Shown here in pieces: positions 13,947-17,304 of a DNA stretch of 48,401 nt. The translations under genes were made by a program, and so were the position numbers. The notes beneath the pieces were generated by a model. That model was not told where the DNA came from and did not search any database. It was given only the letters and a program-made list of their open reading frames with translations. The stretch's first letter is position 1. Every line of letters begins with the position of its first letter. Source of the stretch: an uncultured Verrucomicrobia subdivision 3 bacterium (lineage in GTDB: Bacteria; Verrucomicrobiota; Verrucomicrobiia; Limisphaerales; UBA11358); assembly GCA_903835255.1 (NCBI GenBank), contig CAILMI010000021.1:1-48401 (forward strand), read 5' to 3'.

Positions 13947-15344
13947 TCAACCCCCGAGCGTTGTCGGGTCGGTCACGTCGCCCTTGTTGTAGTCCACGTA
14001 GGCTTCGGTCAGATCGGCGGCATACATCACCGCACTCGCCTTCCCTAGGTTCAGGTGGATGTGCAGTTCAAATTCCTGGGGCGCGACGGCAGCGCAGAGC
14101 TGCTGGAACGTTGCCCGCGTCGGCTGGCCGCGCTTGAGGCTCCAGATAATTTTACGGCTGCCCACCGCGCTGTAACCGATGTCAATTTTCTCCTCCACCA
14201 CCGCCGCCGGCGAATACCCGACCGCGTCAATGATGCGGCCCCAGTTGGGATCGCCGCCGTGCCAGCTGGTCTTCACCAGGGCGCTGTTGGCCACCGCCCG
14301 GGCGGCGGCATCGGCGTCCTGAATGGTTTTCGCGCCCGCCACCCGCACGGTCACAACGCGGTGCACGCCTTCGCCGTCGCGCACAATTTTCTTGGCAAGT
14401 TCGAGGCAGACGTGGTTTAAGGCCGCCTGAAAGACTTCAAAATCCGGAAGCGGGCGGCGCGGGGCATGTTGGGCTTGTGCTTTCTTTTTTGAATCAAGAT
14501 GCGCCCCCCCGACTCCGAGGATGGGATTCCCGGCCAAACCATTGGCGAGAACCAAAACCGTGTCGTTCGTGCTCATGTCGCCATCCACGGTGATGCGGTT
14601 GAAACTGTGCGCGACGGCTGTATTCAAGGCCGACTGCAGGGCGGCCGCCCCGATGGCCGCGTCCGTCGTAATAAAGCAAAGCATCGTCGCGTGGAGCCCG
14701 CCGTGGGGCAGCGTGGCGGGTCGCGCGCCCGTGGGGCTCATACCCGGCTGGATCATTCCGGCCCCCTTGCAGATACCGCCGATGCGAACAGTCCTGCCCC
14801 CGAGTGGGAACTCAATGGCGATCTGTTTCGACCGGGAATCGCTGGTCATGATGGCCTCGGCGGCGTGGTCCGCACTTTCAATCTTGGCCCCCAGCAACGT
14901 CGCCGCCTCAATGATGCCGGCGCGAACCTGATCCATCGGCAGCGTCACGCCGATGCGGCCGGTGGAGCCGACCAGCGCCGAACCTTTTGGCAAATTCAGC
15001 GCGCGCTCGGTGAACGACACCATTTCGCGGGCATCTGCCATGCCCTGCTTGCCGGTGCAGGCGTTGGCATTGCCGGAATTAACGACCAGCACTTGCGACC
15101 GCCCCCCCGCTTTCACCCGCGCCACGCAGACCTTGACGGGCGCCGCGCAGACCTGATTGGTCGTGAACATGCCGGCGACGGTCGCGGGCGTCTCGGAAAC
15201 GATGAGCGCGAGGTCCCGCTTGGGACCCTTGTTGGAGCCCTTGCCAGTGCCGAGGCGTTTGATATCGCAAAAGACGCCGCTGGCAAGAAAGCCGCGGGGG
15301 GCAACGATGGAACCCGAAACGGATTTAAATGTTTTTTTACTCAT
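13947..15344 (-). CDS. argJ: Bifunctional ornithine acetyltransferase / N-acetylglutamate synthase ArgJ
   Basis: ArgJ recycles the acetyl group between N-acetylornithine and glutamate in arginine synthesis. It is made as a precursor that self-cleaves before a threonine; here the motif HATMLCFITTDA places that residue at T220. Other family signatures are VNSGNANACTG, KGAGMIQPGM, RITVDGDMSTND and SWHGGDPNWGR. At 465 residues it is longer than usual (about 400). One extra segment (residues 203-218) sits between GMIQPGM and the cleavage motif, where most ArgJ proteins run directly from one to the other. A second longer stretch lies near residues 276-301. The C-terminus is also extended beyond EAYVDYN. 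The frame is intact, so activity is expected. argC lies 900 bases upstream on the same strand. Confidence 0.95.
   Translation of the reverse strand: MSKKTFKSVSGSIVAPRGFLASGVFCDIKRLGTGKGSNKGPKRDLALIVSETPATVAGMFTTNQVCAAPVKVCVARVKAGGRSQVLVVNSGNANACTGKQGMADAREMVSFTERALNLPKGSALVGSTGRIGVTLPMDQVRAGIIEAATLLGAKIESADHAAEAIMTSDSRSKQIAIEFPLGGRTVRIGGICKGAGMIQPGMSPTGARPATLPHGGLHATMLCFITTDAAIGAAALQSALNTAVAHSFNRITVDGDMSTNDTVLVLANGLAGNPILGVGGAHLDSKKKAQAQHAPRRPLPDFEVFQAALNHVCLELAKKIVRDGEGVHRVVTVRVAGAKTIQDADAAARAVANSALVKTSWHGGDPNWGRIIDAVGYSPAAVVEEKIDIGYSAVGSRKIIWSLKRGQPTRATFQQLCAAVAPQEFELHIHLNLGKASAVMYAADLTEAYVDYNKGDVTDPTTLGG
14691..14738 (-). repeat. Extra in-frame segment inside argJ with inverted-repeat character
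   Basis: These 48 bases encode SPTGARPATLPHGGLH, absent from the ArgJ consensus as I know it. The DNA is rich in CCCACGG/CCGTGGG-like complementary words, as expected of a short palindromic element inserted in frame. Confidence 0.45.
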
Positions 15345-15380: not shown

Positions 15381-16199
15381 TCAAACCTTAACCGCATCCA
15401 TTTCCAGCCGCACCATGCGGACAGGGATCCGGCCGGATTGGTCCCGGGGATGCCGGTCAAGGTAGCGCCCGGTCACGGCGGCGATGAAATCCTCGCGCGC
15501 GCATTCTGGCACGCGCTGGACATAGGGGATCCAGGCGGTGCGCAACCAGGCGGCAAAACCCGCCGCGCCGTCATAGGTCTCATCTTTGGGCGCGAGTTCC
15601 AGCCGCTGAATTTTGAAGCCGGATTTCGGCAGCCATTTTTCGTAATCGGCCGGCGAGTAAAAAAAATAAGGCGTGCGCATCTTGCGGAAAAACCCGCGCC
15701 AGCGCTTGAGCCGCATCTCCGGCCGCAGCGCCAGAAACACGTCGTGGGCATTGCCCTTCCCGCCGCAGGAGACAACCAGCCGCCCGCCCGGTTTCAATAC
15801 CGAAGCCGCACCGCGCAGGACAGCCGGATGATCCTCCATCCAATGCAGGGCGGCATTGGAAAAGAAGACGTCAAACGGGCGGCTCAATTTTATTTTCCCC
15901 GCGTCCATTACGCGAAACCGCAAGTTTGGAAACGCATCCGGCGGAAACGTTTTCGTGGCAAACTCAATCATCTCCGGCGAGGCATCGACGCCCGTGACCG
16001 CACCGCGCGGCAAAGCACGGGCGATTTCCGCCGTCACCTTGCCGTCACCGCACCCCACATCCAGAAGGTGCTCACCGCCCCGCAGGTTAAGCCGAGCAAT
16101 CCGCTCTCGGGCCCAGCGGTGCTGCACGGCGGAATTCGCAGCGTAGTCAGCAGCGTTCCAGACAATCCTTTCTGCGGAAGACGGGGTCACCAGACTCAT
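15381..16199 (-). CDS. Class I SAM-dependent methyltransferase, trans-aconitate methyltransferase-like
   Basis: The 272-residue protein has the Rossmann motif LLDVGCGDGKVTAEIA, the acidic second strand GVDASPEMI, and a FSNAALHWM motif shared with the trans-aconitate 2-methyltransferase (Tam) group. It is probably a small-molecule carboxyl methyltransferase in the cytoplasm. The substrate cannot be read from the sequence. It sits between argC and argJ on the same strand, with short gaps, so it may be transcribed with them without a shared pathway. Confidence 0.8.
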   Translation of the reverse strand: MSLVTPSSAERIVWNAADYAANSAVQHRWARERIARLNLRGGEHLLDVGCGDGKVTAEIARALPRGAVTGVDASPEMIEFATKTFPPDAFPNLRFRVMDAGKIKLSRPFDVFFSNAALHWMEDHPAVLRGAASVLKPGGRLVVSCGGKGNAHDVFLALRPEMRLKRWRGFFRKMRTPYFFYSPADYEKWLPKSGFKIQRLELAPKDETYDGAAGFAAWLRTAWIPYVQRVPECAREDFIAAVTGRYLDRHPRDQSGRIPVRMVRLEMDAVKV

Positions 16200-16242: not shown

Positions 16243-17304
16243 TCAAACCAGTCCCGCCGTTTCGGGGAAATCACAGAGAATGTTCATGCTTTGAACGGCC
16301 TGACCGCTCGCGCCTTTGACCAGATTATCCTCGGCGCTCATCCCGATGAGCCGGCCGGTGCGAGGGTCGATCCGCCACGCAATTTCGCAGACGTTCGTGC
16401 CGACGACGTTTTTCGTGTCGGGCAATGCCTTGCCTTCGAGCAAACGGACGAACGGTTCGCTCGCGTAAGCCGAGTGATAGGCGGCGGAAATTTTCTCCGC
16501 AAACTGGGCCGCACCCGCCGCGTCGCAGACGCGTTCGGTCGGCGCAAGATACAGCGTCGTCAGAATGCCGCGGTTCACGGGAATCAAGTGCGGGGTGAAT
16601 TGAATCGTGACGTTTGTCCCGGCAGCCAAAGAAAGCTGCTCCTCGATCTCCGACAAATGCCGGTGCTTGGGGACGCCGTAGGGGCGGACGCTTTCATTGC
16701 ATTCGCAGAAGAGATAATCCAGCTCCGCCTTGCGGCCCGCGCCGCTGACGCCGCTCAAAGAATCCGCAATGATGCCGTCGGGCTGGACCAGCCCGGCCTT
16801 GAGCAGCGGGATCAATGGGAGCAGGATGCTGGTCGGGTAGCACCCCGGCGAGGCGATCAGCCGCGCGCGCTTGATTTCGTCCCGGTAAATCTCCGGGAGG
16901 CCATAAACCGATTTCGACAGCAAGTCCGGGGCGGGATGGGCGTGGGCATAAAACTCCTGGTAGACCGCCGCGCTCTTGAGCCGGAAATCGGCGCTCAAAT
17001 CGATGACCGTGCAACCGGCGGCGAGCAGCGGCACGGCATACTCGGCGGCGACGCCGTGCGGCAGCGCGAGAAAGACCACGTCGGCCAGTTTGGCTAGGGC
17101 CGGGGCGTCCGGCTCGGTGAACCGCAGCGTCTTGGATTTCGGATGGCTCGCAAACTTGGGAAACACCTGCGCCAGGGTTTGGCCGGCATTCTGGCGCGAG
17201 GTGACGGCGACCAATTCCGCGTGCGGATGATTGAGGAGCAGCTGCACGAGCACTTCGCCGGAATAACCGGACGCACCAACGATGGCGACCTTCTTCGTTT
17301 TCAT
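16243..17304 (-). CDS. argC: N-acetyl-gamma-glutamyl-phosphate reductase ArgC
   Basis: ArgC reduces N-acetylglutamyl phosphate to the semialdehyde with NADPH, the third step of arginine synthesis. The N-terminal NAD(P) fold starts VAIVGASGYSG. The catalytic cysteine is C155 in ASPGCYPTS. The 353-residue length is normal for the long ArgC type. The order argC, methyltransferase, argJ on one strand suggests an arginine gene group; argB and argD are not in the window. Confidence 0.96.
   Translation of the reverse strand: MKTKKVAIVGASGYSGEVLVQLLLNHPHAELVAVTSRQNAGQTLAQVFPKFASHPKSKTLRFTEPDAPALAKLADVVFLALPHGVAAEYAVPLLAAGCTVIDLSADFRLKSAAVYQEFYAHAHPAPDLLSKSVYGLPEIYRDEIKRARLIASPGCYPTSILLPLIPLLKAGLVQPDGIIADSLSGVSGAGRKAELDYLFCECNESVRPYGVPKHRHLSEIEEQLSLAAGTNVTIQFTPHLIPVNRGILTTLYLAPTERVCDAAGAAQFAEKISAAYHSAYASEPFVRLLEGKALPDTKNVVGTNVCEIAWRIDPRTGRLIGMSAEDNLVKGASGQAVQSMNILCDFPETAGLV

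Follow-up and report, generated by a model that had tools for sequence, protein, structure and literature searches.

The window, by which the whole analysed stretch of 48,401 nucleotides is meant, carries on its minus strand (13947..15344) the argJ gene, which encodes a bifunctional glutamate N-acetyltransferase/amino-acid acetyltransferase of 465 aa. The protein scores above the curated NCBIfam cutoffs, both with NF003802 (403.8 bits, cutoff 351) and with TIGR00120 (374.1, cutoff 298), and its AlphaFold2 model (pLDDT 87.1, pTM 0.89) has the ArgJ/ornithine acetyltransferase fold, since Foldseek matched it with ornithine acetyltransferase 1vz6 (E 6.7e-38) and with the chains of 1vra (TMt 0.89-0.93). 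Four stretches of the model fall below a pLDDT of 50, namely residues 32-34, 36-39, 210-216 and 286-298, the last two belonging to what are called here segment 1 and segment 2. Self-cleavage is predicted from the family to occur before T220, at A219|T220 (14685..14690, minus strand). Both residues are invariant in a 45-row alignment (A2), and chain B of 1vra starts at the residue aligned to T220; an exception is L150, a relative outside that alignment, with Ser at 219. Two open reading frames of the same strand, upstream of argJ (15381-16199 and 16243-17304), look from their sequences like a methyltransferase gene and an argC gene, which suggests an arginine gene cluster.

The window's genome, G000, is a 3.17-Mb draft assembly, 97.5% complete. 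Among its relatives, ArgJ was present in 55 of 59 genomes, from which 30 loci were taken, the window's included (six family codes, same order). A further 80 named loci from GTDB genomes, the best 80 of 264, brought the total to 110 ArgJ loci; 26 of these repeat an earlier sequence, leaving 84 distinct rows. The group is called Limisphaerales in this work: many of the 80 loci are labelled Limisphaerales, Verrucomicrobia subdivision 3 or Pedosphaera, and the few labelled otherwise are probably mislabelled. For comparison outside the order, where 190 of 194 genomes of the phylum had a match, the 29 best-scoring ArgJ loci were used. In what follows, L009 is the argJ locus of the window, L010 that of G001 and L030 that of G032.

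The extension ahead of the cleavage site

Immediately before the predicted cleavage site, 16 residues, SPTGARPATLPHGGLH (203-218), separate GMIQPGM from ATML; this segment 1 occupies 14691..14738 on the minus strand, exactly where the original prediction had placed an insert. The prediction was also right that ordinary ArgJ lacks it: the solved homologue 1vz6 passes from M to A-T directly, as do 27 of the 29 loci from outside the order, the other two having six (G071) and five (G110) extra residues. It had further been proposed that these 48 bases are palindrome-like and constitute an intragenic palindromic mobile element inserted ahead of the cleavage site, resembling those of Rickettsia. In favour of such an origin, the segment is an insertion with respect to most ArgJ outside the order, and its length varies from 11 to 19 residues among the relatives. 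Nevertheless, the DNA fold of 14685-14745 gave a z of 0.02, with 98 of 200 dinucleotide shuffles folding equally well, and a search of G000 returned no further copy, the best non-self match to a 91-base query having E = 0.13. A repeat scan inside the segment found one direct repeat of 9 nt and one self-overlapping palindrome, also of 9 nt (89%).

Moreover, segment 1 is common to all 84 distinct rows, with a conserved core, S-x-T/N-G-x-R-P, and an L-H end. A first expression built for it fitted 83 of them, S, R, P, L and H being invariant, and L150, which that expression missed, also has the segment, ending LHSTML. The conserved core in every relative, together with the lack of a second genomic copy, therefore refutes the initial reading of this segment; both marks of a Rickettsia palindromic element, a palindrome and dispersed copies, are absent from it, and a mobile palindrome at this site is now hardly credible. 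The comparison of sequences marks segment 1 as an old extension at the alpha-chain C-terminus, conserved in this lineage and specific to it. After cleavage it would form a flexible tail of the alpha chain, which fits the low model confidence at 210-216.

Repeat DNA in the segment 2 loop

The second long segment of ArgJ, predicted at about residues 276-301, proved to be real. It is a hypervariable loop, residues 274-304 (14433..14525, minus strand), lying between strand 262-267 and helix 301-323. In related ArgJ the loop DNA, flanked by conserved codons for Asn and Phe, varies by lineage, and it contains GTAG-footed REP dimers (REPINs, a name taken from PMC3116915), members of two further REP families, or tandem heptanucleotides. 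The 84 rows divide into 14 REP loops, 23 heptameric ones (threshold 0.6, applied to the cut loop) and 47 others, the REP rows comprising five of family A, two of A2, two of B and five of C, with the window counted in family A by orthology. Family A elements have the ends GTAGGAG...CTCCTAC. The GTAG foot and hairpin, in inverted pairs, were found in the loops of L010, L131, L149, L029, L030 and L162, and the foot is one base off at the start of L011 (GCAG) and at the end of L146 (CTGC). The L010 loop, the sole relative's loop compared with shuffles, gave a palindrome z of -3.40. By its sequence, the element type in the relatives' loop is a GTAG REP dimer, that is, a REPIN. The likeness to the palindromic elements of Rickettsia, which failed for segment 1, thus holds in kind for segment 2, where relatives carry dispersed in-frame palindromic elements.

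Searches of whole genomes gave 63 matches to the family A segment in G001, 66 in G010 and from 2 to 49 in seven other genomes, these figures being matches, not elements (palindromic places may count on both strands), and the scoring having covered 40 candidates out of the 104 from the first look in G001 and 40 out of the 98 in G010. Family B had matches in 5 of 10 genomes, with 10 in G002 and 13 in G032, and family C in 10 of 12, the two without being G000 and G255; neither family A nor family B had any match in G000. A control segment of 87 argJ bases was matched a single time in eight of ten genomes, G003 having two matches and G007 none. In their own genomes, therefore, family A (G001, G010) and family B (G002, G032) are dispersed repeats of many copies. 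Y1 transposases (PF01797, Y1_Tnp) were detected in 51 of the 59 genomes; the REPIN-bearing G001, G010, G002 and G032 have 8, 3, 6 and 8 matches, which mark candidate RAYTs, and G000 and seven other genomes of the 59 have none. G007 keeps 26 family A matches with no Y1 transposase detected, so that transposase loss and repeat loss need not coincide, and a link between transposase loss and REP loss in the window's lineage is suggestive only.

The window's own loop measures 93 nt, the length found in G001. Within it, 14447..14519 (minus strand, 73 nt) stands where G001 argJ has its complete GTAG...CTAC element, likewise of 73 nt. The two segments are gap-free in a 12-row alignment (A1), and 39 of 70 inner positions are identical, without gaps, where 18 would be expected; none of 20000 letter shuffles did as well. 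When ten REP loops were compared with that of the window by local alignment, the score with L010 was matched by 1 of 2000 shuffles and that with L011, a borderline case, by 93 of 2000, and the other eight were not significant. Moreover, the best of the 34 dimers of G001 and G010 for the window's loop was the G001 argJ copy itself. Window and G001 are 0.57 identical in the loop (46/81) and 0.58 at the third codon positions of the gene (229/394), an equality which is the expectation for drift. The window copy shows no palindrome (z -0.40) and no GTAG ends, its start reading CTCG. A present-day repeat of its own genome was considered for segment 2 and rejected, there being no copies in G000. Aligned to L010, the segment is orthologous to a REPIN, and it is best read as a decayed orthologue of the relatives' element, at most a REPIN fossil and not a present REPIN, this origin being argued from position, length and the identities with one relative.

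A loop of 12 codons occurs in 48 of the 84 rows, and its mean lag-7 identity is 0.594, compared with 0.230 for the remaining 36-nt windows of these genes. An identity of at least 0.6 at this lag is reached by 29 of the 48 loops and by no background window, and in 31 of the 48 rows the loop tops every other window of its own gene. For the remaining lags between 3 and 12, the loop stays near or below background apart from a slight rise at lag 8. Within the 334 kb around argJ in the 80 named loci, 22 of 33 strong 7-nt clusters are the argJ loop; among the other 11 there are six outside any ORF of 150 aa, three inside unverified ORFs and two N runs. In three of the loci, L122, L126 and L129, a heptanucleotide tract stands immediately upstream of the argJ start (at about 1445-1485). 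A degenerate heptamer pattern was present in 20 of the 59 genomes, in some of them in argJ only and in others in many arrays, and gave 116 overlapping hits in all. The reversed control pattern, a heptamer repeat in its own right, gave 17, spread over 10 genomes.

Probable recurrence, junctions and copies in other genes

The history of the loop was followed on a quick tree from which the loop itself had been left out and many forks of which are unresolved. The presence of any REP demands at least 10 changes on it, with minima of 4 for family A, 2 for A2, 2 for B and 4 for C; the starred branches alone force 1, 2, 1 and 2, respectively. A single clade for the five family A rows, the window included, was rejected (AU p 0.0016). 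The window (L009), L010 and the REP-free L012 form a fork which the tree does not order, and L011 is placed elsewhere, so that the copies in L009, L010 and L011 need not share a single ancestry. Each of the two family A2 rows has heptamer rows for neighbours, L131 being grouped with L025, and L149 with L148 and L154; the two groups are distinct and both are starred. The flanks of L131 and L025 are 88-93% identical and their loops are unrelated. Those of L149 are 87-92% identical (ungapped) to its heptamer sisters, whose loops again bear no evident likeness to its own, and 62-85% to L131, the other A2 carrier, and transfer of the loop between lineages by argJ recombination is therefore not favoured. 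Distant carriers resemble one another more in the loop than at the third codon positions of the gene (for example, 0.89 vs 0.56 for L011 and L162, 0.83 vs 0.52 for L029 and L030), a result compatible both with separate entries out of related REP populations and with conversion still going on.

All 14 REP-class elements start in one frame, the start in the window having been set from its L010 counterpart. In the eight complete dimers, which belong to families A, A2 and B and measure 52-73 nt, the right junction lies 14 nt before the Phe codon without exception and the left one, in seven, 9 nt after the Asn codon; the seven dimers with both standard junctions keep 23 of the ancestral 36 nt. In family C the start is at 9 nt in three rows and at 6 nt in the other two; the far end can be recognised in L182 alone, where it stands 15 nt from Phe. 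Since the 12-codon loop is also found in several ArgJ outside the order, the REP-free loop of this length is probably the ancestral state. The flanks of the 34 complete dimers from 40 chosen stretches of G001 and G010 have T at -2 in 48 of 68 cases and T or C at -1 in 62 of 68. A strong insertion target was rejected as the cause, this TT/TC preference being too weak for exact junctions. The junctions are identical across unrelated families and sharper than the flank preference predicts, and the insertion step is thus not fully explained.

Repeats of family A also lie within other genes. Twenty stretches each of G001 and G010 were picked from the best matches, so the counts that follow are not genome-wide rates. 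In G001, 15 of 37 family A places, some of which are half copies, fall in Pfam-family ORFs or argJ (the scan took in ten of 14 listed ORFs and left two of the ten without a Pfam match). The hosts are radical SAM (2), kinase (4), xanthine-dehydrogenase-like (2), dnaE, an EPSP-synthase-family gene, presumably aroA, a UvrD-like gene, lpxB, R-M methylase (2) and argJ. In G010, 10 of 25 places fall in Pfam-family ORFs, nine of the ten ORFs scanned having matched. In-frame palindromic repeats are therefore present in several genes of the relatives, as open frames (G001 dnaE, EPSP-synthase family, lpxB, argJ and others). G001 and G010 have the insert in dnaE, which G000, G007 and G018 either lack or have in a far shorter form, and the lpxB insert is found, among five genomes, in G001 only. 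The dnaE genes of G001 (L288) and G010 (L292) carry a REPIN of different sequence at the same site, possibly another case of content turnover at one site. Three further places may be recorded: a protein-kinase ORF of 1291 aa in G001 (L099:2488-6360) with four family A matches; an extra family A REPIN dimer (G001 L112:1628-1693) about 0.9 kb upstream of argJ and outside it; and, near residues 393-405 of the G032 ArgJ (L030), a further in-frame insert in the beta chain, APAFAKSASARQG, absent from the other 11 rows of alignment A1.

Origin and significance of the loop

Taken as a whole, it is considered likely that segment 1 is an old extension, that the segment 2 loop has been filled repeatedly with repeats, and that the window keeps a decayed family A REPIN. 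The two segments would have unrelated origins. The loop, of a probable ancestral length of 12 codons, would have been refilled time and again with short repeat DNA. In most relatives of that length it consists of heptanucleotide repeats, and in others it would have taken up REP elements, chiefly head-to-head GTAG dimers, copied from the REP population of the same genome. Such copying would presumably have been carried out by RAYT-type Y1 transposases, and the survivors would be those insertions that fell in frame within a tolerant loop. In the window's lineage, an ancestral family A REPIN, shared with G001, would have outlasted the loss of both the REP population and the transposase, its palindrome having been eroded by drift while, as the comparison suggests, the reading frame was kept.

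Instead of entering repeatedly, a REPIN could have entered once, in an ancestor, and been overwritten later by other REPs or heptamers through gene conversion and lost in many lineages. Such a course agrees with families A, A2 and B having the same frame and right junction, with the high loop identity of the distant pairs L011-L162 and L029-L030, and with the different REPIN sequences at one dnaE site in G001 and G010. However, many REP-free relatives have a 12-codon loop, a length that recurs in several ArgJ outside the order, and exact excision would have had to happen repeatedly to leave it; a single clade for family A is rejected, and the quick tree calls for no fewer than the ten changes given above, although gains and losses are indistinguishable there. 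A single entry is accordingly regarded as unlikely. That the window's segment 2 is no more than a fast-changing linker, owing nothing to repeats, is quite unlikely: it has neither own-genome copies nor a palindrome, and it is disordered in the model, all of which would suit a linker, but its length is that of the G001 REPIN loop and its gap-free identity with that loop exceeds every shuffle.

Selection for protein function, by which heptamer and REP loops alike would form an adaptive hypervariable surface, is thought very unlikely. The 48 loops of exactly 12 codons speak for it, as do, by eye, the hydrophobic residues seven apart in many loops, a spacing that a 7-bp repeat gives automatically; REPINs, on the other hand, occur in several frames across many unrelated proteins, which indicates tolerance rather than a role in ArgJ. 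The loop might also be a site-specific exchange slot, where a templated process swaps unrelated repeats in and out, time after time, at one and the same pair of nucleotides, keeping the frame and the heptamer length. Its contents would be GTAG REPINs of three kinds, a GTGGGG REP and heptanucleotide tracts, and the process could be gene conversion or a transposase-guided replacement removing about 13 nt. This reading is offered tentatively, with more doubt than belief; if true, it would represent a bacterial loop-diversifying process going beyond simple REP insertion.

Several known systems come close to the one seen here. According to PMC3733652, GTAG REPs, RAYT transposases and in-frame intragenic copies are already described, and the genome richest in intragenic GTAG repeats is that of Opitutus terrae, a verrucomicrobium, so that intragenic REPINs were already known in the phylum. 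The same source reports different REPs at about the same site in recB of Xanthomonas campestris and X. oryzae, and Rickettsia palindromic elements are described as in-frame translated palindromic repeats inside many genes (PMC10969869, PMC3733652). Like GTAG REPs and REPINs, the elements of the relatives have the GTAG foot, hairpin arms, many copies and Y1 transposases in the genome, and they form head-to-head dimers (34 found, 54-79 bp); unlike the known cases, three REP families and heptanucleotide arrays occur, in different lineages, in one enzyme loop, where one lineage has a decayed copy only. With the Rickettsia elements they share palindromic repeats in frame in many genes, here read as open frames; the likeness is one of kind, and the relatives' elements differ in having GTAG feet and residing in genomes with Y1 transposases. 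As in Xanthomonas recB, different REPs lie near one site of one gene, but in place of two species the ArgJ set has 14 rows with no fewer than three REP families, and in its eight complete dimers the right junctions agree to the nucleotide. The short tandemly repeated heptanucleotides (STRR) of cyanobacteria are 7-bp tandem repeats as well, and similar arrays also occur outside genes in the genomes of some relatives; unlike STRR, the ArgJ arrays are coding, often fixed at 12 codons and placed in one loop.

Among open-licence PMC articles, as far as titles and the beginnings of abstracts tell, no ArgJ loop with repeats, no single loop struck by several kinds of repeat and no coding heptamer loops of fixed length were found. 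The novelty lies in a single loop whose content unrelated repeats have turned over. In this context, judging an 'insert' in a gene requires telling an old conserved extension from a recent repeat. Whether small mobile repeats act as seeds of new protein segments is a question usually posed from single examples. In one housekeeping enzyme of one bacterial lineage, a replicated natural experiment on repeat-derived segments is available, with several repeat families at near-identical junctions, nearby REP-free relatives whose loop length is probably ancestral, and one decaying copy in a genome devoid of the repeat population. The ArgJ loop therefore makes it testable whether such inserts are merely tolerated, and by which route they enter.
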